Of a stretch of 64,000 nt of DNA, positions 4,160 through 60,427 are shown one piece after another. The translations under genes and the position numbers were made by a program. This DNA is from Utricularia gibba (lineage: Eukaryota > Streptophyta > Magnoliopsida > Lamiales > Lentibulariaceae), in assembly GCA_002189035.1 (NCBI GenBank), contig NEEC01000021.1, positions 992,001-1,056,000 of the forward strand, written 5' to 3'. The notes under the pieces were generated by a model. It was not told the DNA's origin, searched no databases, and worked only from the letters and a program-made list of their open reading frames with translations. Numbering within the stretch: the first letter of the stretch is position 1; each line of letters starts with the position of its first letter.

Positions 4160-6684
4160 ATGTTGTCGGGAGTTAATAGCATGGTTTGGGTGGAAGGGGA
4201 TAGAGAAGAGGATGGGGCTTCTTCTTGGGTGCAAAACGATGGCAACAATGTTGGAGAGGGTAAGGAACAAATGGTGGGAATGGGTTCTCTTGCGACGTTT
4301 AGGTCGATGCTTGAAGTCGAAGAAGAAGAATGGTACATGAACAACGGCACCGCCATGGCTGGCGGCGGCGGCGGCAACCCGGTGTCCATGCACGCCCACC
4401 AGGACATCTCTTTCTCACCCAGCTTCACCGAAGCGGGTGACAGCAATCAACTGCTTTTACACCCGGTGGATTCCTCAGCGTCCTGTTCTCCGAATGCGGC
4501 GTCGGTTTTCACCACTCTCGACCCATCTAATCATCAGTTGAATTACTTTTTGCAGCCAAGGTCATTAATGAATCCGATTCCCAATAATAATTCCTTAGAG
4601 GGAAGCTTCGAGTTGGGGTATGAAAGTGGGTATCTGGAAACTGCTTTAAACAGAGCCGGTGGGATTCTCGGCGGCGGTTACAATGATTTGGGATCAAATT
4701 CTCAGATGGGTTCTCTGAATATATATTCTTCTCCTAGTAATTTCGTTCAATTGCCACAAGGGGTAAGTGGATTCGGTCCATTTGGGGTTGGTGAAGGCTC
4801 CATTCAGGGGAACTCATTGTTCTTCAACAGGCCAAAGACTCTTAAACCTCTTGACAATTTCACTTCTGTTGGAGCACAGCCTACTCTTTTCCAGAAGCGG
4901 GCTGCTCTCAGGAAAAACCATGGGGAAATTTGGAGTCCTTGAATTTGGGTGAAACAAGTCTTGTTGGCACCAAGTCTCCAAGCATTGGAGAGGCATATGA
5001 CAGAAATTACAGTGAAGAGATCAACGAAAGGAAAAGGAAAAACAGCAGTGGAGATGATTTTGAAGATGTCAGCATTGATGGCTCTAATTTCAACTATGAT
5101 TCCGATGATCAGTTTCTAGTGAATAAACCAGATGACAGTAATAAAACAGGAGGCCCGGACAGCACGGTGACCGGAGGAGATCTTAAAGGGAAGAAGAAAG
5201 GTTTGCCGGCCAAAAACTTGATGGCGGAGAGGCGGCGGAGGAAAAAGCTTAATGACAGACTCTATATGTTGAGATCAGTGGTACCCAAAATCAGCAAGGT
5301 AAACAATGTTCTTTGAACCCAGAAATCACATTATACACTTTTTCTTCATGTTTTTACATTCTAAAGTTCCTACTTTTGTTCTATCCAACTCTGGTTGCTT
5401 TTCATATTTCTCCTTCTTTTTTGTACCGTTGTTGATAGTCATCCGAGGAGCCTTTGATCATAAATGTGTTGAAAGTGTTTTTTATCGGCATCTTTGAATT
5501 TGTGGGCATATGCCTTAAAGCTGTGTGTTAACATTAAATTCACTCACATGTAATCCATGATGTGATTTCAAAGGGATCCTGCTCTAGACTTTCCACCACA
5601 ACCAGTAAATAGAGATAACACTTTGATGAATAGTACACCAGCTAACCATAGTGACATGGCCGTTCTGGAATGAACTCTTCAGCTGACACATTCCGAATGA
5701 TTTCATTTTGTTCTAGAATTACATCTTTAGTGTGCCTCTGTGCCCTGTCTGCCATATTGAATAACTTAGCATGTATCAGTCTTGGAGTATGGCCTCAGTT
5801 TCAGTGTTTTGAGATCGTCCTCTTGCTCCTTTTCTCATTCCACTCCTTTATTGCCTGCCCATTCAATGCTATGCATCTTCCAACGTGTGCTTTAATGGAT
5901 GCCAGACACAAAAATGCTTGTTTCTTTGTTTGTTTAGCTTGTGCTCTACAATGGAGTTTGGGGTGATGCTGAATGACATAAGATGAGTAGGATAGATCAC
6001 AGGCTTGTTGTACTTCAAAAATATTGAACAGAAAAGCATTGTTTCATTTGGCAGATGGACAGAGCATCTATACTAGGAGACGCCATTGATTATCTGAAAG
6101 AGCTTCTGCAGAAGATCAGTGACCTTCATAACGAGCTTGAGTCTGCTCCTGGCACTTCTGCTGCAGCTCCAGGTGCAAGCTTGTATCCTCCTACACCAAC
6201 GGGGCCAAGCATTCCGCCTCGAATCAAAGATGAGCTCTGCCCCACTGCATTTGCTACGCCAATGTCCAGCCCCACTGGCCAAGCTGCAAGAGTACGAATC
6301 AGTAGCTTCATTTTCTGCATCCCCTGTCATCATTTTGATGAACATTCACATTGATAACAGGTGGAGGTGAGACAAAGAGAGGGAAGAGCAGTTAACATTC
6401 ACATGTTCTGCGGCTGCAGGCCAGGCCTCCTGCTGTCAACTCTACAAGCAATAGAAAATCTGGGACTGGACGTGCAGCAGGCCGTCATCAGCTGCTTCAA
6501 TGGCTTCGTCCTGGATGTGTTCAGGGCTGAGGTGAGCAACCAAACCTTGCTTCATTGACCTCTTGCCGCACTGAAAATCATATTCTAGTTTTGTTTTCAG
6601 CAGTGCAGAGAAGGGCAGGAGCTGAACCCTGAACAGATCAAGGCTACCCTCCTCGACTCAGCTGGCTTTCATGGCATGGCATGA
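4160..6684 (+). CDS. ICE1: ICE1/SCREAM-type bHLH transcription factor, with a one-base frame break
   Basis: Nuclear bHLH factor; family members activate CBF cold-response genes and pair with SPCH/MUTE/FAMA in stomatal development. Exons: 4160-5298, 6055-6291, 6361-6531, 6601-6684; all introns GT-AG and in phase. Restored length would be 543 residues. Exon 1 has the conserved [10 protein letters not shown] block and ends in the basic region and helix 1 ([20 protein letters not shown]). Exon 2 begins [20 protein letters not shown] (helix 2). Exons 3-4 encode the ACT-like C-terminal domain ([18 protein letters not shown]). The frame breaks at about 4922-4928: the first frame stops at 4942, while the next frame carries the conserved remainder. 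One extra G or A there restores continuity, so a sequencing error is more likely than a null gene. It converges with the ARF2 gene. Confidence 0.93.
5299..6054 (+). other. Intron 1 of the ICE1 gene
   Basis: Donor GTAAAC and acceptor TTTGGCAG interrupt the bHLH loop exactly between KISK and MDRAS, the usual intron position in this family. An open frame inside the intron (5670-5966) has no family resemblance. Confidence 0.85.
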
Positions 6685-7224
6685 GCAGCATTGGATTTCA
6701 TCCATTAGTTTACTGAGTCCCCTGTCTTGCTCCATAGTTAATCCTGCGCTCAAACTGATGACCTGCATTTCTCTTCATTCTTCATGATAATAACAGCAAG
6801 GATTTTCCATTAAGATGCTACATTTTTAACATATTACCTCCCCCATCATGTAAACATTGCGTGCTGCTTACATAAATGCTAGAAAGTTACAGCAGTTATT
6901 TACAAAAACTGGCCAACTGGGCGCAGGAGCTCCATGAAAGAACACTACCGATAGTTGTTTTTCCCAAGAAAACAGGGCTCCAAAATTGCAAGCGCTGCCA
7001 ATCTCTTCCATGCTTCCTATATAGTTATATACATACATGAAGGATCCCCCAGCTCCAAAAGTGAGGGAGCTTCCTGTCCATCTTTTATTGCATTGACAAC
7101 GCAGGCAGTTAATGGATTGAGCAAGCTTCGTATAACTGGTTCCTGCATCGAATGAGCGTTGCATCGTTAGATCAATATGTTCTTTGAAACATGAAGTTGG
7201 AAGAAATGGTTACTACCAAGGAAG

Positions 7225-10200
7225 CTAGAGAGCAGGATCAGGGGTGGGTGGTGGCAGATCATTTGCTTCTTTAGAAACACCCTCTCCACTTGAATGGTCT
7301 TCATCTCCCTTAGAATTCATGTAACCTGGATTCAGATGCTGGAGCTCATCCTTCTGGAGTATCAAGATCTTGCTGTACTTGCGAACCATGCTGACAAATT
7401 CTCTGTTCATGGTGAACAAAGTCACAAATCGATTCAAAAACTTGGCTACAATGGAGAAAAGCAAAAGATGCAGCTTACTCCCAAGGGTCATCTCCAACCA
7501 GCATCATATCACCCTCGTAATCAGTATAAACAACTAGCCAGTTCTTCCCTCGATCCTTGAGTTCGCCATTGAACTCAAAAAGATTATCCAGTTCAGCTAT
7601 CAATCCATCATAGTCGTGAAACTTGGAAAGATCCACAGATCTACCCAGTGCAGTCCCTTGCTTAAGAACCTGGTATTTCACAATTTACATTATCTACAAG
7701 CTTACCACAATGGGGACAAAAATCAGTCACATAGAAGCAGATATATATAGACATGGAAACCTTAGTACAACTTCTGCTCTCCTTCATTCCACCAAGAGGA
7801 TGAGAGCTTTGTGACTGCTTTTCCAATTCATTCACCATTATTGGATTATCAGAAGTTTTTGCTCCCTTTGTCTGATTGCTCTCAAATGTAATGGATTGGT
7901 GAAGTGTCCCATTCTGGGTATGATTCGATCGCTCCAATGAACCGGCTTCCACTGGTGCAGATTCATTAGTGATGGATATACCAAAGATCTTGCATATCCC
8001 TTCCTTGGGCTTTGGTTCCTGTGTTTGACTAAAAACAGTTTTCGGAATCAACACTCTGGACTGAATTTCTGGTTTTGTAAGGTCTGGTGTACAATTTGAC
8101 TGCTCGTGATCACATCCAGAATCAGGAATGAAGGGAAGATCTCTCATAGCAACATACCTGACATCCTGGCGTGCACAATGTGATGAATGGGCACCATGAT
8201 CATGAGTTCTCATCCAAGAATTCGTAAGACCTAGCGAAAGCTGATGCGGGATTGTAGACTGGTTATTCCCAGCTACGCCACAATCGCCCTCATGATGAGA
8301 GGTAAGAATTCGAGGCCCAAAACCTGAAAATGATGAATCCATCTGTCCCATGGCTGCCCACCTATCTGAACCGTATACCCTTGAAGCCAGGATACCATCA
8401 TTCACAGATGGATTTCTGAGATGCTTATCAGAAGGGTTTGATTCATTACTTTCAGCAAAAACCCCTCTGAAGCTGAACATTTCTTGGCCGTGGAAAATCC
8501 TCGGAAAACCAACGGCAGATGAAGGATCTGCAGTCATCTTACAAGGGCCTGGAATTCAGAGAGAAAAGTATAGGACTCTCTAGGGAAGAACAGACTCCAA
8601 CAACACCAGAAGTAACTGAATGAAGTTAATGCACAGTGCTACCTTCCCTAGCAAGAGCAGACAAATCAGGTGACGGAGGAACAATACTCGATCGAGGTCT
8701 CTTCGGTCTAGGCACTGGATGCAGATTGAGAGCAGGAGGAGCTAGAGCAGGTTCTAGTTTCCAAGGTGAAACCCTCTCTGGGCGCATTATAGATGAAGTT
8801 TCATCCCATCGTACCTAGGGGAGAACAAAGAAACTACCAGTTAATGAAATCAAAGAAAGATCCTGTTATGTGGGTAACTTTTAGTTGCTCTAAAATTTGG
8901 CTTTCCATTGAGATCAACACAGATGCATAATCAAAAGCAAACCAAATCATTCAAGGGTAGAGAGTTCAGAGGAATGGCTTCAAGGGAAATAATGAGTGGC
9001 ACCTTTAAGCATCTCCATTTTGATTCTGGCCACCTATTTGGATCAGCATCTTCAATGCCAACAACGCTTCCAGTGAACCTGCAAAAATGTATAAAAAACT
9101 CATCAAAACTTTTGGATCGGTCTTCATCAAATTATGTTGATTCATACCTCTGCTCTGGAGATTCATCACCTTCAAATCGCATCTTGAACCTCATTCCAAT
9201 GGTGCAATTATTTTTCACAGACTCCATGTATTGGTCATAAGGCACAATAAACTCTGTTGGACTAGTCCTGCAGAAAACACACAAAATACAACCATGAACA
9301 TAAAATCTTTAAGTGTATCCATTTGATCACCAAAGAACAGCAGCGGATTTTTTTTACAATGTATAACTGAAGCAAAGTATAAAGAGGCAGACCTGGGCTT
9401 GTAAAATACGGTGAACATGGACTTGGTCTGAATAGCATGCCATGCAGTTGCAAGAACACCAAGATGCATGCTGTGGCTGGATATAACTGACGATGGAGAA
9501 CTGCTCTGATGTCTCATGGCACGCCTAACACCAACTCGAAGCTCTCCATTCTCTCCTCTGTGTATCAGCATAAAGTGTTTGGATGATCCACAACCACAAG
9601 GCATAGATATTCAATCTGGAGTGGAGGTGTCTCATTAAACCTCAAAAATATGAAGGCATCTCCAGCAACAAGCTTCTTGGAACTCACAAACACACTCCAG
9701 CCACTTTGGAGAAGATGCCGACGAGGTTGACCTGAAATTTTACCACCCCCACAAAAGAAAAAATTATTTCTGCCTATGAAATCAAAAAGGTCTACAGAAG
9801 TCAGACATCATCATTTTACTAAACTATGCAACGTATTTGGGTGATGAAACACTGGTTTCCACTTTCATTTGGCATCAATCAAGCCAAGAGTTTCAAAGGA
9901 CCCACTACTATAAGTCAGACACTGACAGCAAACCTACCACGAAAAATATGCCTGAATCTCCACTCATTTCCCAGCAGATCTTTGGCTACTAGTTCTTGTG
10001 TTGGAGGTTGCTTCGACATGTCCTGTCAACACATGGAACACTTACAAAGACTGAAAAAGGAGGAAACACAATCAAAAGTAAAAAAGAGCCAAGTTCATCC
10101 AAACCAGAGGGGGGAGACATTCATCAGCGTGGCGTCTAAGCACCGAGAATCCCCCATGAGTACTTGTGTCAGAAGCAGTTAGAGTCTTGCAAAATGAATG

Positions 10201-11053
10201 AACATGAAACCGGGGAGGTGCCTCTGGTTGTGGATCCTTCTGCAATACACTCTCATCTTGCTGGTGGTATGTACAACAAGAGATTCATATTACTAATCAG
10301 GCCAGGATATCGAACATAATACACGAAAAATTCAGAAAGGAAGACACTTATAACCTACATTGGGTTCAGGCATCAGCGTAATTTGAGCAAACACCTCGTC
10401 CGTCTCTGGTTCAGCCTGCAACAAACTCAGAAAGCAGCATAACTTGTTTTAGGTGCAACCCTTGCACAACACTTTAGAATTAGCTTTTTAAAATCATATA
10501 ACCTTCAAGCTAACGTTGACGACGCGGCAAAGAATCTTAGAAGGAAGATTATACACAGGCATCGTTTGGTCTGCACTTTGATTAGTGGATGCCACAACCT
10601 GTTCAGGAGAAACCCCATAAAAGTATGAGGGAAAAATAGGACTCCCATGAGAAACCCTAGTACCCCAATTGTGAAAAGGCGTAAGAAAATAGGCTGGATC
10701 AGGGCTTTGAAAAAGTTTCATCACCCCCCAAGAGACAGCAAACAAAAAAGAAAAGAAAACCTGCTCTATATGACCCTGAGGAAAATAGAAAACAAGTTCG
10801 TTTTCACGAGGCACAGTCACCAAAGGCCCAGCGCAAGCCCTCCATAGCTCAGTATATAACGCTGTCTCAGCATCCACTGAAGATGAACAACACAAAAACA
10901 ACAACAAACTGCTCAGCCAAGGAAAAAGACGTATCTTTCAAAAGTGATTCCAAATTAGACACCTTCCCCGACGCTTGAATTCCTCATCTCCGGCACGTAA
11001 TTACCGCCGCTGTCATCACCATACCCTTTGATCGGCACCTCCGCAACACCCAT
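7225..11053 (-). CDS. ARF2: Auxin response factor, ARF2 clade, 14 exons
   Basis: Nuclear repressor-type ARF that binds auxin response elements. Exons: 11053-10963, 10876-10761, 10598-10503, 10415-10359, 10260-10105, 10022-9938, 9731-9641, 9557-9393, 9267-9148, 9078-9003, 8814-8643, 8548-7761, 7669-7479, 7402-7225; total 793 residues with every phase agreeing. Domains: N-terminal flank ([16 protein letters not shown]), B3 DNA-binding domain about 137-240 ([20 protein letters not shown]), Auxin_resp domain about 264-346, basic RPKRPR near 375, a long middle region, and a PB1 domain about 672-765 with the acidic [16 protein letters not shown] strand. The order APPAL...RPKRPRS marks the ARF2 clade rather than ARF1/9. 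Oddities: the second PB1 half reads [10 protein letters not shown] where ARF2 has VRKIFIY, and the TAS3 target site is degraded (8481-8501). Gene appears intact. Confidence 0.95.
8481..8501 (-). promoter_or_regulatory. Degenerate tasiR-ARF target site in ARF2 exon 12
   Basis: ARF2/3/4 genes carry sites for TAS3 tasiR-ARF within codons for (K/R)VLQGQE. At the equivalent place this gene encodes FPRIFHGQE. The 21-nt coding-strand site differs from the Arabidopsis ARF2 site, as I recall it, at four positions, including central ones. It is aligned by the flanking protein and the GQE codons. Whether it is still cleaved cannot be told from sequence. Confidence 0.5.
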
Positions 11054-20748: not shown

Positions 20749-23444
20749 ATGGCGACAAGAGCGGGAGAAGAATGTCTTATCCCGATGATCCCTCCGGTGG
20801 CCGGAGATGTTCCCACCTTCTCTACCTCAGAAGAGAAGCTACTTCTCAAATCTCCGGCGATGAATACATTCTCCATCACAACAAAGCCTGAAGAATCAAA
20901 AACGTCGGCTGCGCCGCCCACTGCATCATCCTCCTCTCCTTTTTTTGCGTCTATCGCTGAACTGAAAGGCCTTTCCTCTGCGATAATCTCCTTCCAGGAC
21001 TGCTATGAAGATCTCCGTAGCCATCTAGAATCAATCAAAGCAGCTATTGCGGCGCAGTTACCCTCTCCGGGATCCGAGCAAGGGTTACAAGACGCTGTTG
21101 TGACTACTTCTCCAGTGAGGCAGCATATTAAGCAATGTAATTCGGAGTTAGAAGGTCTCTGTAGAACGATGTCTTCCCGTGCTGTGAGGAAATATTTGGT
21201 CAATCATTTATCTGATCTTCCCATGCTTCGGACAAAGGTTCCTGTTGCGTTGAAGCTCGCTCCGAATCCGCCAAAATTGGTTTTGGAATGTTTTGGAAAG
21301 TTCTTTCTGCAAGGAAGTGCGGCATTTGCTAAGAGCTCTTCAATGACTCAGATTCATGCTCGTGAGGCATCAATATTCATACTTGAGTGTTTCCTATTGA
21401 TGATGAGAATGGAAAATGGAGTTGAAAGCGGCAGTTTTGTGTTGAATATTGATGAAGAAATAAAATCAGAGGCGAATCTTTCAGCGATGGCATGGCGGAA
21501 AAGATTAATAGCTGAAGGGGGGTTGCGTAAGGCATCTCAAATTGATGCCGGGGGCTTCTGTTGTTGGTCGCTTGTTTCGGAATTCCGGATTTGTTTAAGA
21601 AGGAGGATATACGGGATTTAGTGATTGCTGCCAATTCCAAGGAGACCATGGATGTAATCCGCAACTCCAGCACCTTCATGAATAGGATATCGGGTAATGG
21701 ATTTTTTATCGCTTTGATTCTTTATTGATTGTAGTTAGAAGTACTCATGATTATTGAATGCCAAGCATGTGTTTTTATGTCTCATTCATTTTGCTTCTCA
21801 AGAAAAAAAGAATTGGTTTTTGATATATTTTCGTTTGAGCTTGTGTTCTGATTCGAGTTCATTGATGATTCCAGTTTTTTATTGAGTTCAAGTCTGGTCT
21901 GCTGAGTCACTTTATGCATTACATAGTAACTTCCATTCGAAAATGGTGCATAATGATCTTTATTAAAATCTGTATTGCAAGATATGACAGACGTGTTCAT
22001 TGAATCCATATCATGCTTCTTATCCGGGCATATGATTACTTTTGCAATGGGTTAATTGATCTGAAACATCTATCAGTGACCGGTACAAAAATTTCAATCT
22101 TCTGTAATTTCATGCTAGTGCGGATGTCTGGTGATCGTTTTAGTTGCCTGCCAAAAGCTTGCTACTATTTCTGATTGCGGCAACTCAGGAACTTTCAGAT
22201 TGCAAAATGCTTGCCACCCTTTCCATCCATTACAAAATGTGTAGTATTTGGTACCGGACTGCCTTTTTGGATTAATAGTTTGTGTCATCTATATCTCTTG
22301 CCTTCTTGCTATCTTCATGATATGCTTTCTGTGCATGTTTACAGAAATTGTGGATGAAATGCTAAACCACAAAATGGAAATAGATGCCGTTGAGATTATC
22401 TATGCTTTCAGCCTCGAAGGCAAGTATGATCCCCGGAAAATTTTACTTTCATTCCTTCGGCAAGCTAAGGAATCTGGAAAAAAGCAAAAAAAGATGAATT
22501 CGGGCTGTGCATCTTCAGTTGTAAGTTTTGTTAGAATCTGAATGGAGTATTGTGCTTTTTCAATGGACACCTTATCTAGATCGTTTCATTCTCCTTATTG
22601 CAGATTGAATACAAAAAGACGCAGTTATCTAATTTGACAGCCATTACCAATTGCTTGGAAAGGTACAATGTGGACGTTGCCGAACTTCTTGCAGGATGGC
22701 AAATCAAAGAGAAGATTGCAGTTTTAGAAAGAGACTTAGCTGACACCGGCAAGAAATCAGACAAGAAGCCATTACCACGCCACAAAAGAAAAAGAAATGA
22801 AGTTGAGACATCATCCAGAAGGCAAAGTGACCAACAAGCAAAACGATCCCGGTATGGCATTCATCATCCACCATGCAGTAACCGGAGGGAGTCATTTGAC
22901 AGCACTGGTCATTCTCATCAAAGCCGTGCAAATTCATACTCCGCCTCCCCATCCATGGTCTACAGTGGAACTGGTGCAGGCGGAAGGTTGCCTCCCAGTT
23001 CATCACACTCCCCAGTGAGCCGTCATCTACCAGCAAGGCCCTACCCTGTTGTTCATGCAGGCTTGCTGGTTGATCCAGCTGAGTACATCACTCATCCGCA
23101 TATCTCCAGAACCTCTGTAATGACTGAAATGCACCCCAGCAGTGGCCATCACCCTTTGTCATTGGGGCTCCCTAGTTTGTACAGAACATCCATGGGCGGA
23201 TATCCTAGTGAAGCACTGATAGGAAGTCGAGGCTTTGCACTGGAAATGCATGGTTTTGCCGGTCCGGAAAGGTTTCCAGGAGCAGTTGTTTCTCCCAGCA
23301 TTGCATCCATTGCAAGTTGTAAGCGATCTTCCTATCTTTCATGATGTCTTCTAAGCTAGCATATGCTGATTATTTTGGTTTGTTTACTCCATTGTTCTCT
23401 ATTCTGTTCTTGGGCTTCCAGCTCAAAAGATTACATGTACATGA
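20749..23444 (+). CDS. FRI: FRIGIDA, with a one-base frame break
   Basis: Scaffold of the FRI complex that activates FLC-type floral repressors in the nucleus. Exons: 20749-21693, 22345-22520, 22604-23318, 23422-23444; restored length 619 residues. The order of motifs fits FRI itself rather than FRL proteins: SIAELKGLSSAIISFQDCYE then LESIKAAI, FFLQGSAAF, AMAWRKRLIAEGGLRKASQ, LLLLVACFGIPDLF (after the break), EIIYAFSLEGKYDPRKILL, and AELLAGWQIKEKIAVLERDL with a basic HKRKRN segment. The first frame stops at 21621; from 21548-21554 (CCGGGGG) the conserved GLLLLVACFG continues in the next frame, and one added base restores it. The last exon adds only eight codon fragments and a stop. Arabidopsis has natural FRI nulls, so a real allele is possible, but the shared error pattern argues otherwise. 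Confidence 0.9.
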
Positions 23445-31377: not shown

Positions 31378-33287
31378 ATGGATCCTGATGCTTTCTCTTC
31401 CAATTTGTTCAAATGGGACCCAAGAACTGGTCTCCCGGGTACAAACAGGCTGCTTGAGCCGGTGGTGCCAATGGTTGCCCCGCCTCAGGTAGCATACTCC
31501 ATCAGGCCGAGAGAGCTTGGGGGTTGGAGGAGCTTTTTCAAGCTTATGGGATCAGATACTTCACTGCTGCTAAAATTGCAGAGCTTGGCTTCACTGTGAA
31601 CACTCTGTTAGATATGAGGGATGAGGAGCTTGATGAAATGATGAACAGCCTTTGCCAAATTTTCAGGTGGGATCTCCTTGTTGGCGAGAGATACGGCATC
31701 AAAGCAGCCGTTAGGGCAGAAAGGCGACGCCTTGATGAGGAGGAGGCACGGCGGCGCCACCTCCTCTCCGGTGACACTATCCATGCCCTTGATGCGTTGT
31801 CGCAAGAAGGTCAGCGTTTTCGTGGCAGTAAATTTCATCTCTTCGCACCAGAAACACATTCAATCATAAATAACTCTACTATTTACAGCACTGTTTTCTT
31901 GCTAGCTTATAGTAATCAAATTATGCATATCTTACTATATTGTACATTTTCTGATGCTTTTCCTTAAATTCTGGAAGTAGGGCTATCAGAGGAACCAGTG
32001 CAACAGGAGAAGGAGGCAGCAGGAAGCGGCAGCGGTGGAATGTGGGAGATGATGGCGGTGCCTAGCGGAAGTAGGAAGCATCAGCAGCAGCAGCGGCGTA
32101 AGAACTACAAGGGTCGTTCCAGAATGGCTTCAGTTGAGGACGATGACGACAACGATGATGAGACTGAAGGTGCCGATGATGACGACAACTGCGGCGGATG
32201 CGAACGGCAGAGGGAGCATCCTTTCATCGTCACCGAGCCTGGTGAAGTAGCTCGTGGGAAGAAGAATGGCCTAGACTACCTCTTCCATCTCTACGAGCAG
32301 TGCCGCGAATTCTTGATCCAAGTTCAGAACCTTGCCAAGGAAAGAGGCGAAAAATGTCCCACCAAGGTTAGCTTCCTTCTACCTTTCCCCTTCAATCCCA
32401 GTCCTTACCTTTTCTTGAGGATCCAGTTTACTTGCACTTCTAGTTTAACATAGGTTGATTTGTAACATTTCAACAAACCGTAGGACATGACAACACACTT
32501 TGCTTCTTGCTGATTCTACTAGATTCGGAACAAGAACTAAATCATTATGCCTAGCAGATATCACAATCTTGCACACACCCTCTGGTTAGTATGAATAGTT
32601 TCATTGTAGTAGGTAGTTGTCACGGTCAACCAGTGAGATTTGCAAAGGAAAGTAAAAGAGCCATAGAGAGCAATGATGGCTTGTGTGTATCAGTAGGCCT
32701 GTTGTTATTGGAGGTGTCATCAGGTGAGCTCGACAGCTCAGTTCAGAATTCTCGGCCTGACTGAAGAAAGTCCCTAGGGGCCCAAAAAATCAATGTCCTT
32801 GTAGCTTTGTCTGTTTCCACTAGGGCTCCCAAACCCTAATCCTCTGTACCACAGTTTCACCTTTATTCTTCCTTGTGTGTCCTCACTAAATCATGGGAAT
32901 CTTTTTCAGGTCACCAACCAGGTTTTCAGATATGCAAAGAAAGCAGGGGCCAACTACATCAACAAGCCTAAGATGCGCCATTATGTTCACTGCTATGCTC
33001 TCCATTGCTTGGATGAAGATACATCTGATGCACTGAGGCGCGCCTTTAAGGAGCGCGGTGAGAACGTGGGTGCCTGGCGCCAGGCTTGCTACAAGCCCCT
33101 TGTTGCTATTGCTGCTCCTCAGGGGTGGGATATTGACGCCATCTTTAATGCTCATCCGCGTCTTGCTATATGGTATGTCCCGACGAAGCTCCGGCAGCTT
33201 TGCCATGCTGAGAGAAGCGCCGCCGCCGCGGCCGCCGCCTCCGCTGCAAGCTCCGTTACAGGTGTTGCACATATGCACCCCTTTTGA
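31378..33287 (+). CDS. LFY: LEAFY/FLORICAULA floral meristem identity factor, with a one-base frame break
   Basis: Nuclear transcription factor specifying floral meristems. Exons: 31378-31809, 31981-32366, 32910-33287, the canonical LFY three-exon structure; restored length 398 residues. It starts [20 protein letters not shown]. The SAM-like oligomerisation domain (about 47-125) has [20 protein letters not shown] and [16 protein letters not shown]. An acidic Asp/Glu linker follows. The helix-turn-helix DNA-binding domain (about 230-385) is almost invariant: [59 protein letters not shown] poly-Ala stretch precedes the C-terminus. The frame breaks in the G run 31519-31523: five G are present where six keep ELGGLEELF in frame. 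For an essential, usually single-copy gene this is almost surely a sequence error. Confidence 0.96.
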
Positions 33288-37119: not shown

Positions 37120-38350
37120 TTAACTTTTCTCTGCCTGGAGAAGCTTCCCAGAAATGGCGGTAGCCAAAGCTGCCTTGAAGCTCGGGTCTTGGGTAAGCAC
37201 AGAAGCCATTTCCTCGACTAACAGCTGCTGGATCTCTAAGCTGTCCACTTTTGCTGTCTTAGCTTCTGGGGATTGCTTCTGCTTAGTCAGATCAAGAGTC
37301 ACTGTTGGGGTGAGAGTGTTTGCGCTTGTGATGTTGGTAACTGCTACTGATCCTCTACTGAGATTCTGATGCGCTTGGACTTGAGATGGATTTGGATGGT
37401 TGTGCTCTCCTTCATAAGTTGCAATCAGAATGGATTGATCCTCCATGCTTCTTTGAACCTGAGTTTCATGAGCAAAGACTGGTTTCAGATGAATCAATCC
37501 CTTTGAGGTAAGTGACAGAAGGTGTACAAAGATATGCTGCTACCTTCTTCTTAACATGACAGTTTGGAGCAAATGAACACTTGAAATAAGCTCTGGGACA
37601 AGGGTTGTCCCTAGTCAGTTTCTGCCCGTACTTCCTCCATTGATACCCATCTTTAACTATCTGCAAATCAATGAAGAAAAGCCTCCTTTTCAGTCCCTAT
37701 AGCTTGAAAATGGAGATTTGAGGTTCATGGCTTACTTACCAAGCTAGTATCAGACGCTTCTGTTCTAACATGAACCTGCGAGATCGTAGTCATTACAAGC
37801 TCCTCCCTCGGTTTCTTTATCGACTCTTGGTCACCGGAGGTGCTCTCAGATGCTCCGCCGTTGATGCTACTGTTGTCATTCCCGGCTTTCCGCTTCTTTG
37901 AATCACCGGAGGTGTTATCGCTTTCCGCTCTAGCAGAGTTCTTGGTACTCCGTAACTGGTTCCTTAATTCAGTGTACTTCTGCGACAGGAGCTTCAGCTT
38001 CTCCTTCAAGATCCTGTTTTCTTCCCCTACTCTGTTCATCTCCTCCGTCAAAGCTACCCTCTGCACAAGACAAAGCAGCGGTTCAAAATCAATATACCAG
38101 ATCCGCTTCCCATGATTCGTAGTACAACACGCACCTCTTGCTGATCAGACAAGACATAGAAATTTCTACCCAGACCCAGAAAACCATCTCGGAGCTCCTC
38201 CTTCTGAAACACACAAAAAAACGTTAGCAAAGCTGCTGAAATCACATAACCCACAGAAGGGACTTACCGGCAAGAGGGACATCTCATTACAGGGTCTTCT
38301 GGGCTTGGAATTCAGACCAGAGGAGGAGCTAAAAGGCTTGTGAACTCCAT
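37120..38350 (-). CDS. WRKY40: WRKY transcription factor, group IIa (WRKY18/40/60), probable one-base frame break
   Basis: Pathogen- and ABA-response regulator that binds W-boxes. Exons: 38350-38268, 38203-38135, 38060-37740, 37660-37544, 37458-37120; 309 residues if one base is restored. Exon 3 opens with a leucine-zipper-like coiled coil ([20 protein letters not shown]) and basic KKRK. The WRKY domain gives [20 protein letters not shown] and a C-x5-C-x23-H-x-H zinc ligand set ending EGEHNH. Here the usual V of GQKVTRDNP is L and the usual S of NPSPR is C. The C-terminal [19 protein letters not shown] is the group IIa tail. From ATG 38350 the frame ends after 12 codons; inserting one base at about 38316-38319 gives the family's N-terminal LDLN-type motif and joins the rest. 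A start at the internal Met of MSLLP is the alternative. Confidence 0.88.
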
Positions 38351-46434: not shown

Positions 46435-49400
46435 TCAGTCTCTTGTTGCATCACAGAGGAACGATGTGAAAAGAGAAGCAGCATCTTTCAGATGGTGGGA
46501 ATGAAGGTCTTCTGGAAGGGGAGCTCGGAAAACCGTGTCGAAGCAGCGGAGCTGAACCTCATAGGAGGAGCTTCTACCGGAGCTCGAAAGAAGGCGGTTG
46601 CAGACTCCCTCGGCCATCTTTGAGAAGACAACCCTGGAAATGAGTACAGGCACAAACTACATTGTTAAGAGATGACTGATAATAAGGCCAGACGGTATGT
46701 GCCATGCCTAGAGCTACTAGCTGAAGTAATAAATCAGATATTCCTTGTGCTTTACTACTACTGAATGTTCCCCTTCATCTTCTTATGTTCACACATGGTA
46801 TAGAGAAGCACTTAAGCATCCTAGTGTACGATGCGGATGTGCAGAACGAACTAGGCACATCAGATAGTGTGGTGGAGGTAAAGAGACACACTCATGAGGT
46901 AAACAGCTTCAGACTTGGGAATATTGCTATGATAATTATATTCCTAGGTTAACAGAACCAGGCATGGAATCTAGGAACAGATGAATTGCATTACCTTCCC
47001 TCGACTGAAAGCTTGCTGCCCCAGACCACGAGAGATCGGTTTATGCGATCTATGAAGTTTGAGAAGTCAGCATTTTTGCTTTCAAAAGTGCCCTGTCAAA
47101 AGAGTTCTTCAGTTTCATAGGAGAAATATCCTGTTCTGAACTTCAACAAGATAAACCACCTGATCACTTTATGCTTCTGTAGTTGTAAACCACTTAGAAA
47201 TAACCAGAAATATGGAAAGACAGTGTAAATTCAGTTAGGCATTAAAAAAATTGAGTGACACTAATATACAGTTATGGTTTTGATATGAATAGTATGCTAC
47301 AAAACAGGACCGTACCGGTTCGGACATAGGATCACCATCTTCCCCGAGAAGCCTGTCAATGAATAATATGAAATATAAATGCCAGCACCAAGGTCCCAGT
47401 CCTCGATTTCTGGTTTATGCTCTTCCATGGAAATAGCAAGACTCCATATCTCTGTGTGTTTTCCTGAAAATAAGCAATTTAACATGATGGTACCAATAAA
47501 TGTGTCTGCAAATACTGGATCGTCCACAGCACTGATAGAAATGAATCTCGTATCATTCTTAAATCATGCATTACTGGTTCCTTACAAATTTTAATGCATT
47601 AAAAATATCTCTATTGCTAGGCCACATGGGAACATCAATTTTAATTTGATAAACAGATTTAGAAAGTGTTCGCCGTATGGGAACCATAGAAAAAAATAGC
47701 CTCCTTACCAGACAAAAACAGGGAATGCGCAACTGAAGTCATAAAAATTGAATGTGCCTTCTGCCAGCTTCCACAAGCAAGAAAGTTCTGTAGTGCTTTA
47801 GGATAGTCACCAAGATAACTTGAATATATTGCCTACAATAAGAAGAAAAAAGTGCAAATAATAATTGGTACAACTGGATATAGCATGACTAAAAGAGAAC
47901 ACCAGGACGTGATCATAGAGAAGGCACCTTGGAACATCAAACCCATTCTAACGAAAATATAAGACAGTAAGTGCAAAGACTCACCAAAGCTTCATGTAGC
48001 CAGGAGGAAGGGATACCAAGATTTTCAATGAACTTCCATTGTGATTCCTGAGCACTCCAGACCTCACAATACTGTGAGAGGATTTCCCTTATAATAGTTA
48101 TATGCAAATATGGGCAGTCTTCACGATGAGGGATATGAAGCACCACATAAATAGCCCAGTGACAAAGCCCAGCACAAAGCAATTGGGAAACAAATGACAT
48201 GTCCAGAATATGGAAATCATTAGAACTGAATGTTCCAATGGCTTCTAAAATTGCACGCTGATGCCAAATCATGTGATAATCAAGTGGATCATCCGTTGAG
48301 GCAGATGCACTGAACATGGTCTTGAGAACGCCAAAGTCATTCTCTTGTTTTGCATGAAGAAGCATAAGATAGTAAGCCAAGTCAAAATGGCCATTGCCAT
48401 CCCAGCTGATGGATTCTTCTGCAGGACCTTCATCAATGTAGACAGGAACAGGGTAAGGAGCTTTTCCTTCATTGAGAAGCTTCTGATAGGTATTAAAAAT
48501 ATCAGGCAGGGAACTCTCAGGTGGAAGTTGATACCACATTAACATCCCAAGAACCGCTTCCAGTCAATTTCTGCACCTCTTAATGATCCACGAATATTCC
48601 CACCCAGCAACTCAAGGAGCCTCAATCTATCATCCTCAATAAAATTAAAATCCAAGCCATTTTTCCTCCAAAGATCAAGCTGATGAGCAACATTTGCACG
48701 ATTCAATGTTGAACCCCCTGCTTGACTCAAAATACAGGATAGTCTTACATCTCCTCTGAAAGCAGCAAGCTCCACAGCAGTATCAAGCTGTCGTCCACTA
48801 AGAAGAAAGAATATGTGGTCAAGATAATTTGCGTCATCCAAAAGGCTAACATCTGCCTGTACGCGGTGGTAAACACTTTCTTGAAGCCAATAGCTGAATT
48901 CTGCTCGTCTCAAAAGTGGAAGAGCATCCTCATCAACATCAGGGGTTTCCAACTGATCATATATCATATCCTCCTCCTCATCCACCAACTTCAGTTGCCC
49001 ACTAGCTTTTCTCAAGGAAAACAGAACTTTGATCAGTTCCCAAATCAAAACTTGGTGCATCAAAGGCACACGCAACGAAGATGACAGCATTGGCACCTCT
49101 AATTGCCGGTCAATTATGTTTATATACCTCCTACATGTATCAGCAAGAATGAACCGATCACATGTGATCTTTCTAAGGGTCAGGTGGGACGTTTCAAGTT
49201 CCAACTGCTTAGTTTGAAAACTTAGTTCCTTATGAAGTTTTAGGGGAGAAATGAAACAGAAGTCTAAAAGCTCTTCTGCAACCTCATTTCTCTCATCTCT
49301 TATGGCTTTGTCCACTGCAACCTTTTCAAGATTAACCACAGACGATAAAACAATTTCATTTCCAAAACTGAAAACAGGTTTACCAGAATGGACAAGAGTG

Positions 49401-50527: not shown

Positions 50528-50989
50528 TATTAGCTAGAACACGACGGTTTACTTCCCAAATGCCGGATTCTAACTGCGTGATAAATACACAAAACTGCGG
50601 CAATAACGCCAATCAGGTGAAACAACCCAAAAACACAGGAATCCAAAACACAAAAAGAAACTTCATCGTTGCCAAAATGCTCTATAAACGAAAACTCTTT
50701 CCAGAGAATTGAACCATTTCGAATGAGATACCTGAAAACACAAAATCTGCGACTACGGCCGATGTTACGAGTATACCAGAAGCTTGTTGAAACATCCAAC
50801 TCTTCAGAATCAAATAGAAACTTCGAATGCAGTTTCAGTCCCGCTGTTCTACCAATTAAGAACCAAGACGGCCTGGGGCAGGAATCGTTCTCAGTCTCCG
50901 ACGCACCTCGGAGGCAGCGAAAACCTGTAGCTGCGCCGGAGTTGGCTGCAATCCGCGAAAACCTTAACGGGGCGGGAGTGTGAAGACCA

Positions 50990-51490: not shown

Positions 51491-51495
51491 GTCCC

Positions 51496-51785
51496 CTAGC
51501 ATGAAGGAGCATTTGGGATGTTACACTTTCTAGGGAGCTGCTTAGCCAATTGAGGATCAATGTTATAGGAAGGCAAAGAAGGTGAGTCCATGAAGCCACA
51601 AAGGCACTTGATATCGGCATGAGATAGGGCACCGCAGCACGCACTCGACGGCGGAGCCGGAGTCGGAGGAGTTGCCGCAGGCTTGCACTCCATCAGCTCC
51701 GAAAACGTTATGTTGCACGTCTCGGCGGCGATCGCAACCGCGACGAGGAGGAAGACGGCAGGATCGCAACCTTGGTGGTGGCCAT
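51496..51785 (-). CDS. DIR1-like lipid-transfer protein 1, with a one-base frame break
   Basis: Secreted 8-Cys lipid-transfer protein; DIR1 relatives carry lipid signals in systemic immunity. Single exon. The start ATG at 51785 (MATTKV) is in one frame and the rest of the protein (FLLVAVAIAAETCNITF, ECKPAAT, ACCGALSHADIKCLCG, then KCNIPNAPSC) is in another. Alignment with the neighbouring copy shows one base missing at 51758-51763, between GCGATCCT and GCCGTC, where the neighbour reads GCGATTCTCGCCGTC. Restored, the protein has 96 residues with the C-x9-C, CC and C-x-C pattern of type 2/DIR1 proteins and a signal peptide of about 22 residues. The two genes are head-to-tail on the same strand. 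Confidence 0.88.
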
Positions 51786-52618: not shown

Positions 52619-52912
52619 CTAACACTTGGGCACATTTGGGATGCTACACTTTCCAGGGAGCTGCTTAGCAAGTTCAGGATCAATGTGGTAGGAAGGGAGC
52701 AAGGGAGAGTCCATCAAGCCACAAAGGCATTTAAGATCAGCATGGGAGAGGGCCTTGCAGCAAGCACTCGACGGCGGCGCCGGAGTCGGAGGAGTTGCCG
52801 CCGGGCTGCATTCCATCAGCTCCTGCATCTTCAAGTTGCATATGTTGGCCGCATTCGCAACGGCGAAGACGAGAAAGACGGCGAGAATCGCAGGCTTGAT
52901 GTTCATCTCCAT
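52619..52912 (-). CDS. DIR1-like lipid-transfer protein 2
   Basis: Intact 97-residue paralogue of the gene at 51496-51785. The signal peptide is MEMNIKPAILAVFLVFAVAN; the mature part has CNLKMQELMECSPAA, ACCKALSHADLKCLCG and KCSIPNVPKC, giving all eight cysteines. Start at 52912, with a second in-frame ATG at 52906. The promoter side shares conserved stretches with the other copy, for example GGAACAAAA, TTAACAAACTTGCTT/CTAACAAACTTGCTT, consistent with a tandem duplication that included the promoter. Confidence 0.93.
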   Translation of the reverse strand: MEMNIKPAILAVFLVFAVANAANICNLKMQELMECSPAATPPTPAPPSSACCKALSHADLKCLCGLMDSPLLPSYHIDPELAKQLPGKCSIPNVPKC

Positions 52913-52999
52913 CGTTGAGTCTAGTGTTCTATTGGGGAAGAAGTTCAAAAGCAAGTATTTATAGGATTGAGGGATGAAGGGGGTGATAAATTATGGAGT

Positions 53000-53690
53000 G
53001 ATGGTGGTGTTTTCAGTTTCTAGTCTTGGAAATGGAAGGTTGAAAAGGCTAAGTGTGGTTTGTTTTCATTTCTTGCTTTTGGAACAAAACCCTAACAAAC
53101 TTGCTTGCTATTCAAGAATCAAATAACAAAATACTTTAGGGACATGTTTGGTTGTGGTATCAAAAAATGTTTTAATAAGAATATGTAAACGTAAATGAGA
53201 TAAGATATGTTTGATCGATAAATTATAAGTACGATAGAAAATATGTTTTATTTCATACAAACATACTTACGTACTTATTATTTTTTAATGATTCATAAAA
53301 ATATCAAATAAAAGGTTGAATATGTAAATCCCACCTTCCCAATTTTAGGTGTAATTTACATTTTCTATAGTTTAGACATATTATATCATAATTTCAATCT
53401 TTTACAAATTTTATCATGCTTAATAAACGTAAAATTTCGATATATTAATTAACATTTTCACCTATTATTATCTACCAAACATATCCAACTAGTATTCTAA
53501 AAGACTTGCAATAAAATTAATTTCATTTTAATTAATAATTAGATCGTGTTTGATATATTGGTTTGCGTTTTTAAATACGTGTGATTTGTAAAATAATTAT
53601 ATGACTTATCCGTTTTCGCACAATATTTACCTTGATTTTTGTTTTAATTCTTCTAGATACTCATGGCATGGGATTGATGTAATACCATTA
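53000..53690. other. AT-rich intergenic DNA
   Basis: Lipid-transfer promoter for the first 150 bases, then AT-rich sequence without a gene. Confidence 0.55.
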
Positions 53691-53696
53691 CTATGG

Positions 53697-54290
53697 TTAT
53701 AAAGGAAGGGTGAAGAGGTATATCTTGAGGACCAAAGAAAGAGACAGGTGCAGCAGGAAAATGGCAACGACGATGAGGAACCAGTGTTCACCTGTTGACT
53801 TAACGTGGGTTCTCAGTTTCAGGCCAAGATATGCGGCGGAGATGAAGCCGGAGACACTGGCCGCGACCCATCGGAATATTTCCTGAGGAATGACGGATAA
53901 ACACTGCAGAAAATGGAAAGGAGTGTTGCATCATCAACAGCATTTCCGCTGCTGAAGCGAACTTTAGTTTCTAGATTTGAAACGTGTGATCAAAGCGAAC
54001 ATCTGAATTCCACACAAAAAGAGTGACGTAAACGAAACTCGCCGTCGGAGGCGAGGAGAAGAGCCATCTTCGTTCGTTTCCGTCGAGTTCTACGGCGGTG
54101 ACAAGGCCATAGCGGCTGCTCTCCAGTGCGTTTGGGGGGGGGGGGAGAGATACCGATGAAAACGAGACATCCCCAAAACCAAATCGCAGCTTCCCAAACC
54201 GGAAACCGCCCCGCGAGCTGACTGGAGTTTGAGCGATCCCCGTTAACCGTCCCGCTCAGCAACATAGATCTGAACTCAGGTACCATGCCC
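53697..54290 (-). CDS. Tentative membrane-protein gene, unrecognised
   Basis: The last exon, 53903-53697, is supported by a good acceptor (TTCTGCAG) and an open frame ending TAA; it encodes about 68 residues with two hydrophobic stretches (WVAASVSGFISAAYLGLKL and WFLIVVAIFLLHLSLSLVLK). An upstream open frame from 54283 (MVPEFRSMLLSGTVNGDRSN, then WEAAIWFWGCLVFIG) may be exon 1, also hydrophobic. The join is not resolved: several donors are possible and a 12-G tract at 54134-54145 sits in between, where a base-count error could hide the true frame. I do not recognise the family. Confidence 0.35.
54134..54145 (+). repeat. 12-base G homopolymer
   Basis: Twelve G in a row, the longest G run seen in the window, inside the tentative membrane-protein gene. 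Base counts here are unreliable in error-prone reads. Confidence 0.8.
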
Positions 54291-54647
54291 ATCGGGATTA
54301 GGGTGAGTTGGTCCTCTAAATAAAAATGACAATATAATTGATTTAATTGGTATTTATAAATGAGATGACACTAGAATATTTTATTAAAAATTTATAACAG
54401 AAAATATTTTATATTATATTTCAGAAAGAAATAAATCACTACAACTCTTTATTTATCAAAAATCATTTTTAAAAACATAAAAAACTAGAATTCTACTTCT
54501 TAAACATAATAATAATTTCAAATTTTTAAATTTTTGAAAGAAAAAATCATTCATATTCAATAACAAAACTGTTTATATAATATTTAAACCACAAAGACAA
54601 TTTCAAATAAAACTTGAACTTCTTTCGATTTTTCTACCTTCAAGTTT

Positions 54648-54838
54648 GAACTCAATCTTCAACTTCAAATCGAAGTGAAACTAAATTGTTTATCAATGTC
54701 ATAAAAAAACGAAATATTCGGGTGGTAAAAATTATTTCGACGTCGAACTCAATCTTCAACTTCGAATCAAAGTGAAACTAAATTGTTTATCAACGACGTA
54801 AAAAATCGACATATTCGGGTGGTAAAAAATTATTTCCA
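54648..54838. repeat. Tandem duplication, 97-bp period, two copies
   Basis: GAACTCAATCTTCAACTTC begins both units (54648 and 54745). Both continue with AAGTGAAACTAAATTGTTTA and ATATTCGGGTGGTAAAAA. They differ by scattered substitutions and small indels, so the duplication is not very recent. Confidence 0.85.
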
Positions 54839-54839
54839 T

Positions 54840-56380
54840 GAAGCAAACTACTTGCATCACTGCACCTTATGTTGTGTGGAATCGAAGGCAGGGTTCATTA
54901 CTCCTTGCAACAGACGCAGGAATAATAATGTGGACCACTCTTGAGAGAGGAGCCACTTGCCTGCAATCACTATTTTTTTTAATTTTTTTACCATATTAAA
55001 AAACAATATTGTTATAGTAAAAAAAATAGCCCCCTTTTTTTAAAAAAATCGCCTTAAATAGTATGTGTCATGAGCATCTTTTTTGAGTGTACAAGTTTCA
55101 GAGCGACCGGACCGGACCGGACCCCCACCCACGGTTCTTGCAATAATGTGCGACTGTTCCTCATGTGACATGTTTAATGCCTTCCCCCCAATGTGCGAAT
55201 TTATTACAAAATTGTACCTTCAAATAAAAATTGTTTTTTAAAGCTGTACAACCTATGTGAATGTGAACCCATTTTGCATGCCCAACGACAATACGGAATA
55301 TTTTTATATATTTTTAAATCTACCATGAAAAACGTGAATAGATAATAATACCAGGATATTTTGAAAATTAGACATACTTATATTTTTTTAATATATCCGA
55401 TGAGAATACGATATAATTTTAAGTTAATTTTAGATAATTTTAAATCTATTATACGTGTTTATAAAAAACGAGAATAGGAGAAAAAATATTTTATAGACAT
55501 ATTGGCTAATCTTGAAACCACAATACATCATATTTCTATATAATTAAGCTTTATTTGATTCACTGTATATTGAATTGTATTATCGTGTCTATTTGAATTG
55601 AATTCTAGATACTCAAATACAACATAAAGTAACATTAACATCGACACTAGTTTTAGAATATGAATTGCATTTTATTAGAAAATTGAAGAATAAGATGATT
55701 CTAATGTCAACATAATTGCCAAATTATACACGAACCTCATTTGCATCATAGGTCGTAAAATAACAATAAGATAACCATTCATTATATGATTTTTTTTTCT
55801 AAGATCAAACGCATTTAGTCATGAAACATACATGAATTTCGAAACAATATGATATCGAAGAGGGACGAATGGTATGATCGTATTGTTTTAGAATTTGATT
55901 CAAATACGAGTTCACTATCGAATAAAGTTTATGATGTATTAAGGCATGGTTGTAATGGTGGTGAAGGGTATCCAAAACATTCCAAAAGGAGGAGACCACA
56001 TGGAGGTTGAAAGTGGAAGTTAGTGGCATTTCGGTAATATATGTGGAAAACATGGGGCAAATAGTTATGGAATAATAAAAAGTATTTGACTGGCGCGAAA
56101 GGCAATAATTGAACGGGAAGCAGACCAGCAAAGCGAAAGTCTCTCGGGGAGGCCCAGTCTAAGTCTAAGTTATATCATGTCCTGACGGAACGTCTGCGAC
56201 ACCGTGTCCGTCCGTATCAGAACCCTGCTCTGACACTTCTTTCCCCCAGGGATTAGTAATAAAAAAATATTATTTTTTATTATCTTTAGGTGGAAATAAT
56301 GGAATTAAAATGTAATAATAATAATGGAGGGGAAATAGTTTCTGTACACGACATGGGGCGTTGTAATTTAAAATGATCAG
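54840..56380. other. AT-rich intergenic DNA
   Basis: No gene seen; low-complexity A and T runs near 54970-55050. The minus-strand frame at 55805-56131 is not recognisable. Confidence 0.55.
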
Positions 56381-56389
56381 GTAATAATA

Positions 56390-56787
56390 TTAGGGTTGAT
56401 AGAGCTTCGTCCCACACCTGCACCGCCACGTCAGAAGGTAGTAGCTGTCGTCTTCCCGACGGTCTCTGCTGTTGCTCTCTGGTTTTCCGGTGACGTCGCG
56501 GTGGGGCGGAATCACTAGACTGGCCTCGCACGGCCGGCAGTTGAGACATTTATTGACGCACGCCGGTGGGCGTGATCCCAGCACCACCTTTCTCAGCTCC
56601 GCCCTCACGCCACCATCCGCATCGCCGGAAGCTGGAACCCGGAGACCAATGGGTTACCCCCTTTATCCATTAGAATTGTATTTCGGAATGAGAGAAGAAG
56701 CTTACCGGGACTGTGGAGGAGAATGCAGGCGATGAAGGAGAGGATGAAGCCCGCCTTGAGGATGGAAAAGAGCGACGCAGCCGCCAT
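56390..56787 (-). CDS. EPIDERMAL PATTERNING FACTOR-LIKE secreted peptide
   Basis: Cys-rich secreted signal read by ERECTA-family receptors. Two exons, 56787-56706 and 56631-56390, with a 72-nt intron and matching phase 1; 107 residues. Exon 1 is a signal peptide (MAAASLFSILKAGFILSFIA CILLHS in pieces). The mature end has the EPF domain: GSRPPACVNKCLNCRPCEA, then an 18-residue variable loop, then DDSYYLLTWRCRCGTKLYQP, with the Cys spacing of the family. The GSRPP/CRCG..L(Y/F)QP form suggests the EPFL8 subgroup, from memory. Intact. Confidence 0.88.
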
Positions 56788-56827
56788 TGATGCAGCACAG
56801 GGAAAGGGGAGGAGGGTTTGGTTAAGA

Positions 56828-56868
56828 AGGAGGAGGAGGAGGAGGAGGAGGAGGAGGAGGAGGAGGAG
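56828..56868 (+). repeat. (GGA)n microsatellite upstream of the EPFL gene
   Basis: About 13-14 GGA triplets 40-80 bases upstream of the EPFL start codon, probably in its 5' UTR or core promoter; on the transcribed strand it reads (TCC)n. Confidence 0.85.
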
Positions 56869-56929
56869 AGTGGAGGAGGGGGAGTATAAGCAACATGGGG
56901 AGGCATCAGACGAGGTTCTTAAGCAGTGA

Positions 56930-59640
56930 AAACGATGGGGAGAGCGCTGTCGTTACGGAAAGCAGCCGGTTCTTGCTGCCAAATGGGTGTGCGTCATCGT
57001 TGATTTGTGAAACACAGAGACGACCCATCGCCGGTCTTCACCCAGATGAGTGCCCATATTCAATTCGATTGCTGGGCACGTGTCACTGCAATGACATAAA
57101 GAAGGAAATAGAGAGAGCAGTGAAATTCATGGCAGCTGCCTCCCCTGCACTCCCATTTACATTTAACAAATTTTACTTCAATCGCTACTATCAATGCTAC
57201 TGCCAACAATCCAATTTTAATATTTTAGAACCAGGTATGAGTTAGAGTTGGGCACAGGTCAGATTCGACCGTTTATAAGTTGAACTCATCGAGTCAACAT
57301 AATAAATTATGATTCAACTGATATGGATTAACGGATCAACATGCTAGATCCGTCTCGAGTCACGAATTAATTCGAATCATTACATAATTTTATATGTACT
57401 AACATGAATTGGGCTTAATTTATAAATTTTCATACAATTTATATATATTAATACAAGTTGAACTTAATTTATGAGCCATGTTACCATTACACAATTTATA
57501 TATTCGAGTTGATATGTATTCATTTACACCTCTATTATGAATAAATAAAAACCATCGAAATTAATAAAAAAACAAAATATTTTTGATCCGGAGTTTGGAT
57601 ACATCCAATTAAAAATAAATATATAAAGAAGCAACCATTATGTAATAATTTTCTAATATAAAGAACATGTATATATTGAAAATATACTAGTGTAGTGAAA
57701 AAATTATATATTAGACATCTAATGTATGAATTATATGGAAAAAAAATACATTATTACTTCTACCAAAGAAAATTCCTTCAAAACCATCATTTTTTATTTA
57801 AAAATACTATTGTGTATTTTTTATATAAATTTAATTATAAACATTTTATGGAATATATGAACTAATCATTTTTTACAATAATACCCTCTAGAAAACACAC
57901 ATGATTTTTATTAAATTTCTCATTTCTATGCAAATTTCAAATGGTTTGTCAAGTGGATGAATTTTGGATTTATTTGGACCACCTTATAATATCAAAAAAA
58001 GTTTCGTAAATAATTATATCATCAAATACGAAGGATTTTTATTTCAAATAAAAATTTACAATTCCATAAGGATCTAACTTCTATTTTATTAGAAACACTT
58101 CTCGAAAAATAATCAAACAGAGTTTTCAATGTCTCGTATCGTATGCGTTGAATGGTAATGGGCTATCTTCGTACGAGCTTTCGTCACGGTTTTTTGGGCC
58201 TGGCCCTGCATCGGGCTTCGTGGAAAGGACTGGTTTTAAATATTCATGGGTTTTAGCTACCCAGCCCACGGGATTCATTCACTCTATATTTTATATGAAT
58301 TATTGTTTTCACTAATTATCAAATAAATACATTAATTACACATTAGTTATTTAATTCGTTATTTTAAATATTAATATACTTCGTCAACCAAGAAGTGCAA
58401 ATTCACATAGAATACAAAAAAAAAAAGAAAACTCATAAGATATATGTTGGAATTTTGAAAACACTTTGGATTTAAGATTGACTTGAAAAATAAAAATTTC
58501 TGAAATATTAAAATTTTCCGGAAATTTAAAACATTACATATCATATTAAAGATTATTTTATATTGAATAACACGTATTAATTACTAGTGGTACATATCTT
58601 ATACAATTTTTAATAATATTCAATGAATTAAATATTAATTTGTGCTAATTTAAATTATTAAATGCATTGATTCTTGGTATACTTATCGATTAATAACGTA
58701 TAAATGATATTTTTATTAGTTATAATGACGAGTATCCATATTTATATAAATAATTTATATTTATGAAATATTAAATCTATCATAAATAAAAAAATATTTA
58801 TGCTTATTAAATGTTAAAAAAATAAAAGAAAAGTACATAAATAAAAGGAAGCATCTCACACAAGTACCACTATGGAAGCAAATTATTTTATTATTCCAAA
58901 TTCCTTTATTCTCCATTTTTTAATATATTATTTTAAATTTAGAAGATTTCGACATTATCGAATCGGTCCAATTTCTTAATCCATCCTTTTTTTAAACTAA
59001 CAAATTCTGTTACAACACGTGCGCTAGATGCGGTTTGCTGATTTATAAAATATAAGTTTTATTAATAATTTTGTCTTTTTATCTACTTTAAATATATGTA
59101 TCAAATATAATAACATTTTAAATACACACATAAAACTTTAAATTAGTGGTTAGCTAATCAAAGGAGTTGAATTGAGATTCTAAAAAATTTACAATATAAA
59201 AGAACAAATGAACTTCTCAATCTTATTCTATTATAAGAACGGATTGATAAGTGCATATGAGTCAATTCGGATATATAAATTGTGTAATAATACTAGAAAT
59301 TATGAATTAAATCGAATTGCTGTTAATATATATAAATTATGTAATGATTCGAATTAACTCATAACTCGAAATTCATCTAGGGGTTCAATCGACCTCGATC
59401 TTATGAGAAGGGTTATTGAGCATGCTTGTGGGGACCTGAAAGATGGTGAACTGTGTTTGATGGTGGTGAAACTGAGTGAACTTTGCTATCATGATTTTTT
59501 AGTTATTAATTTTAAATATGTACTTATAAAATCTAAGTATAAAACATACTTTTTAATTATAATCAAATAATGCATTATTGTTTTTTTGGTATTTAGATTC
59601 CGAAAAAGGATGGTATAATGATTTGGTAGCTCCCTGGGAC
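56930..59640. other. AT-rich intergenic DNA
   Basis: About 2.7 kb without a supported gene. The plus frame at 56895-57245 is Cys- and Asn-rich but has no family match. The sequence from 57250 on is AT-rich and probably old transposon debris. Confidence 0.5.
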
Positions 59641-59728
59641 TATAAAACGATGGGTTGGGAAGAAGCTGTCCGGCACCTGCTGCAGAGTGGGAATCGTATT
59701 CTTGGGAGATCACCGAGTTTGGAGGAAA

Positions 59729-60427
59729 ATGGTCCAGAGCAGGAGGTTCAAAGGGGTCCGACAACGCCACTGGGGTTCCTGGGTGTCAGAGATTCGCCAC
59801 CCATTGCTGTAAATGTTCAGTATTCAAGTCTTTTACGCGACAGGATGCTGTTTTGTTTCTGGATTTTGCTTTGTCTGCGTGTAGTAAATGCTTGGATTGG
59901 ATTGGATTGTATGTATATAGGAAGAGGAGGGTGTGGCTGGGCACGTTCGAGACGGCGGAGGAGGCTGCCAGAGCCTACGACGAGGCGGCGGTTCTGATGA
60001 GCGGTCGTAATGCGAAGACCAATTTCCCGGTGCCGGAGAATGTAGGTAACGCCTGCAGCGGCTATGTTTCTTCGTCTTCCTCGAGACCCAGTTCGCTTTC
60101 GTCGATCCTAGGGGCGAAGCTCCGGAAATGCTGCAGATCGCCGTCGCTGACGTGTCTCCGCCTGGACACGGAGAACTCCCACATCGGAGTTTGGCAGAAA
60201 CGGGCTGGGTCAACGTCGGATTCCAATTGGGTGATGACTGTGGAGCTTGGGAGAAACAGAGCACCGAAAACACTAGCCTTAGCACTGCTGCTGCCGTCCC
60301 TTCAAACCCATCTCCGAACAACAGCGACAGCAGCAGCACTGTTCCTCCAATGCAGACAAGAGAAGGAATCAAGGAAGAAGAACGGATCGCTCTCCAGATG
60401 ATCGAGGAATTTCTCAACCGAAACTGA
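59729..60427 (+). CDS. SHN1: SHINE/WIN1-type AP2/ERF factor, with a one-base frame break
   Basis: Activates cutin and wax biosynthesis. Exons 59729-59808 and 59921-60427 (112-nt intron inside the AP2 domain, the usual place); restored length 195 residues against 199 for WIN1. The AP2 domain starts almost at residue 1: [40 protein letters not shown], then [20 protein letters not shown]. The SHN-specific middle motif [13 protein letters not shown] is present. From 60249-60251 (GGG of CTTGGGAGAAA) the first frame loses the family tail, while the next frame reads [16 protein letters not shown], the conserved SHN C-terminus, and stops at 60427. One more G restores it. Confidence 0.92.

Follow-up and report, generated by a model that had tools for sequence, protein, structure and literature searches.

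The eight single-base frame breaks in the window, i.e. the whole stretch of 64,000 nucleotides analysed, which is part of the 1.7 Mb contig C321, are with a probability of about 96% consensus errors of a long-read draft, in which single bases were dropped, most often in G/C runs, and were not restored. In the living plant the seven genes that carry these breaks are most probably intact. Losses of the same one-base kind occur in genes across the genome, which points to sequencing errors rather than mutations, and the simplest account is a long-read draft that received too little base-level correction.

Three-frame translation of the window showed a frame change at all eight sites, each of them one base short. 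The original prediction of eight single-base deletions in seven genes was thereby borne out, the eight being real breaks in the assembled sequence. As an internal yardstick for the frame checks we used a block of contig C1 (C1:2,790,000-2,888,999), which carries second copies of ICE1, LEAFY, WRKY, LTP and SHINE with the order kept. The frame breaks are the following:

4922 to 4928, forward strand: ICE1, one base missing from a G run that is one G longer in the open C1 copy.
21548 to 21554, forward strand: FRIGIDA, one base short; Pfam Frigida positions 3-136 and 133-181 lie in adjoining frames.
31519 to 31523, forward strand: LEAFY, five G where the conserved frame requires six bases; the C1 duplicate has the identical run and break.
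38316 to 38319, reverse strand: WRKY, N-terminal break, one base short in the LDLN motif; the C1 copy is unbroken.
48543 to 48549, reverse strand: NUP96, first break, one base short at GGG (CCC on the forward strand).
47345 to 47362, reverse strand: NUP96, second break, one base short with ambiguous position, from the alignment to PDB chain 9sob_M.
51758 to 51763, reverse strand: first LTP gene, break between signal peptide and LTP domain; the neighbouring LTP gene and the C1 copy are open.
60249 to 60251, forward strand: SHINE (AP2), one base short; in the C1 copy the frame stays open as far as the same C-terminal end.

The matching pieces of the window and the C1 block share about 72-89% identity, as would be expected of a whole-genome duplication, from which the block presumably derives. 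Collinearity with C1:2790000-2888999 extends over positions 3941-60731 of the window and takes in ICE1, an ARF-like gene, LEAFY, a DnaJ gene, WRKY, LTP, an EPF gene and SHINE, with only a partial match for NUP96; dS is about 0.4-0.8 in most of the tested window/C1 pairs. The break site is in frame in the C1 copies of ICE1, WRKY, LTP and SHINE, and that of LEAFY lacks one base in the corresponding G run.

In ICE1, the residues RKNHG are followed by NLESLNLG one frame over, and the run counts four G in the window against five in the C1 copy, where the frame is kept. The C1 copy of ICE1 in turn (about C1:2796500-2797740) is one base short at two other places, breaking a frame that the window copy keeps there. 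In LEAFY, RELGG is followed by a 17-residue peptide one frame over, with SAM_LFY 3′ of the break, and in SHINE, VELG is followed by EKQSTENT...EEFLNRN and a stop, again one frame over. The WRKY break separates a 15-residue peptide from LNSKP in another frame, whereas the C1 copy encodes a continuous 17-residue peptide; this case had been considered the weakest of the eight, and the unbroken duplicate across the N-terminal motif strengthens it. The first LTP gene has its signal peptide and its LTP domain in separate frames, and the neighbouring LTP gene (52622-52990) has an unbroken frame.

For FRIGIDA there is no usable C1 copy at the break site, and a second NUP96 copy was not found for the stretch searched. 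At the first NUP96 break, Pfam Nup96 positions 2-105 and 103-292 lie in overlapping frames, and residues 2-328 of 9sob_M, a chain of solved structure that spans both NUP96 breaks, are matched in one frame and residues 326-518 in the next. At the second break, the peptide joined with one unknown residue aligns without a gap at this point to residues 557-637 of the same chain (E 1.5e-21), and the position of the missing base is ambiguous within some 16 bases (about 47346-47362). Introns were considered as the source of these frame changes. They are ruled out at FRIGIDA and at the first NUP96 site, since matches to the profile or structure in one frame overlap those in the other, and at the second NUP96 site, where the frames adjoin and leave no space for one.

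The survey was then extended to 100 Mb of the plant assembly, in 516 contigs, by frameshift-aware alignment of 44 GRAS loci to their paralogs (21,304 codons). These genes are mostly intronless, and the loci are partly non-independent, a few being copies of one gene on two contigs. A break was taken as well supported when at least 8 of 15 residues were identical on either side of it. The GRAS loci exhibited 21 well-supported one-base losses in 63.9 kb of coding sequence. The sole gain and the sole two-base call of this set both fall in L050, a contig-end copy, and the gain corresponds to a loss in its reference, L038, because direct comparison of the two places the gap in L038. No credible well-supported one-base gain was therefore found among the 44 GRAS loci. 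Thirteen weaker calls lie mostly at introns or in poorly conserved stretches.

When the profile tables of the GRAS, KCS and BAHD genes were taken together, 23 of 28 contiguous frame-changing junctions were one base short, many KCS and BAHD junctions having been excluded from this polarity count as they lie at likely introns. The other five are L043, which amounts to two losses, L050, the decayed L060, and two unexplained junctions, in a KCS gene on C414 and a BAHD gene on C411. Breaks appear to be fewer in the KCS genes than in the GRAS genes. The break rate is 0.55 per kb in the window (0.24-1.09; 14.5 kb of coding sequence with about 8 breaks) and 0.33 per kb in the GRAS genes (0.20-0.50), with overlapping intervals, and the C1 copies have 3 breaks in about 6.5 kb, the coding lengths of the window and of the C1 copies being hand estimates. 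Breaks thus affect unrelated genes on different contigs with similar frequency, and the rate of the window is not special.

The losses are associated with G/C runs. Ten of the 21 GRAS losses adjoin a G/C run of at least four bases, compared with 8% of random coding positions (P 1.6e-6), and 7 of 21 adjoin a run of at least five, against a background of 1.9%. None of the 21 adjoins an A/T run of at least four, though such runs are commoner, and about half lie away from any long run. In about 290 kb of sequence including the window, G/C runs of 7 are rare, those of 8-11 are absent and a few of 12-14 are present. This depletion of long G/C runs fits a systematic shortening and is suggestive rather than decisive.

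The assembly also holds unmerged duplicate contigs, the same locus lying on two or three of them (L029/L030; L038/L050/L059; L035/L063). The contigs C1, C2, C505 and C507 have sizes of 8,500,000, 6,192,500, 3,452,500 and 642,500, all multiples of 2,500, as if contigs had been cut in fixed steps in scaffolding. Alleles or recent duplicates usually differ mainly by substitutions. Four comparisons of contig pairs, two of which share L038, gave in total 22 gaps and 4 substitutions: L029 against L030 (4.1 kb) presents 10 gaps, all of them bases missing in L029, and one substitution; L038 against L050, 10 gaps and 2 substitutions; L038 against L059, one gap and one substitution; and L035 against L063, one gap in 537 bases. 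Such an excess of gaps over substitutions between contigs of the same locus is the signature of error, in contigs that are small or contig ends and are possibly worse than the main contigs.

Real null mutations, tolerated thanks to the duplicates left by whole-genome duplication, would be the obvious biological reading, and a frame-breaking lesion in one of two duplicates is what unitary pseudogenes and null alleles present after such an event. Five of the genes do have a second copy on C1, so that the loss of one copy is not in itself lethal, and the genome does contain GRAS copies that have truly decayed. One of them, L060 (C244:2105000-2106500), has in-frame stops, a two-base loss and missing segments and looks like a real pseudogene, in contrast to the one-base breaks. 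However, in-frame stops are absent from the GRAS genes in which a one-base loss is well supported, L050 excepted, and neither other decay nor relaxed selection around the break was found in the genes tested. The dN/dS values are 0.06-0.45 on both sides of the breaks in LEAFY, ICE1, SHINE and the DELLA pair L044/L045, which indicates purifying selection, although a very recent mutation is still compatible with them. Moreover, real nulls would also bring gains and longer indels, where only losses are seen, and NUP96, for which no second copy was found in the stretch searched, would carry two nulls. We therefore regard this explanation as very improbable, in agreement with the view of the original prediction that independent nulls in seven unrelated genes are implausible, the same losses being found genome-wide.

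A mixed situation, in which most of the eight are assembly errors and one or a few genuine lesions, is unlikely, though less so than nulls throughout. The best candidate is the broken LTP copy, a tandem duplicate whose intact neighbour of the same kind would make its loss tolerable, in a genome where real pseudogenes such as L060 occur; but downstream of the break the LTP domain is conserved and complete, and breaks of exactly this kind are already expected from the background error rate.

The same breaks in independent accessions had been named beforehand as an observation that would speak against sequencing error, and a break shared with another copy was found once, in the LEAFY duplicates: window and C1 both have five G here and lose the frame at the same point. 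It lies, however, at what would be a six-G run, a class often shortened in this assembly. Between the duplicates, dN/dS amounts to 0.24 for the part that precedes the break, 0.13 for the part that follows and 0.06 for the C-terminal exon, the alignments behind the last two values taking in some bases beyond the exon. With values this low before as well as after the break, an inherited null is not credible. Within the GRAS coding sequence, 3 of 50 G/C runs with an observed length of five bases and 4 of 14 with an observed length of six adjoin a break. If each of these is truly one base longer, about 3 of 13 six-base runs and 4 of 4 seven-base runs would have been shortened, in small numbers. 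It appears that about 7 of 17 G/C runs with a true length of at least six are shortened in GRAS genes, so that a double miscount is not rare, and L044 and L045 form a second related pair with both members short at the same C run. Two separate miscounts in LEAFY are therefore credible, and the coincidence looks like a systematic miscounting of the six-G run.

Two conserved frames that meet at a G run in both duplicates also recall programmed ribosomal frameshifting, by which a break that is real in both whole-genome-duplication copies would be read through. The five G at the same place in the two copies and the purifying selection on either side of the break would fit, and, were it true, the level of LEAFY would depend on ribosomal frameshifting. 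Yet neither junction, T GGG GGT for the window copy or A GGG GGC for that of C1, is a canonical X XXY YYZ slippery heptamer, the other breaks in the genome lie at many unrelated motifs, and both members of the DELLA pair are short in the same manner at one C run. Recoding is thus the least probable of the readings considered here and is extremely doubtful.

The consensus-error account is based on the loss-only polarity, the spread over unrelated genes and contigs, the G/C-run enrichment and the gap-dominated contig differences, and these support the earlier proposal that indel-biased long-read error is the simplest cause, whereas the platform and the read-level cause are inferred. In the likely mechanism, base calling or consensus building would undercount the length of a run and at times drop a lone base, and the resulting consensus would be one base too short. 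Against the account weigh the LEAFY break common to both duplicates, the several losses outside long runs, the apparently lower number of breaks in KCS than in GRAS genes, and the fact that the clearest contig comparisons come from small contigs or contig ends. Furthermore, as the evidence comes from the assembled sequence alone, each single site falls short of proof.

The artefact is of an already known kind. Homopolymer-length errors are described as the commonest residual error in long-read-only bacterial assemblies (PMC8812927), and such short indels, for the most part false deletions that go with homopolymers and break otherwise conserved frames, resemble those seen here. In one nanopore bacterial assembly, indel errors were dominated by false deletions, in runs two to eight bases long (PMC12007338), with more errors at A/T runs, in contrast to the G/C-run enrichment here, and a barley study calls indels common in long-read assemblies (PMC8290290).

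A frame break about every 2-3 kb of coding sequence shows that correction of this assembly was insufficient, while the originally proposed term "unpolished" goes beyond what the rate shows. At this rate many intact genes look broken, so that claims of gene loss, pseudogenes or dosage drawn from the assembly would be unreliable. A break common to two duplicates in a long G/C run is no proof of a real mutation, and the genes with the eight breaks should not be labelled pseudogenes.
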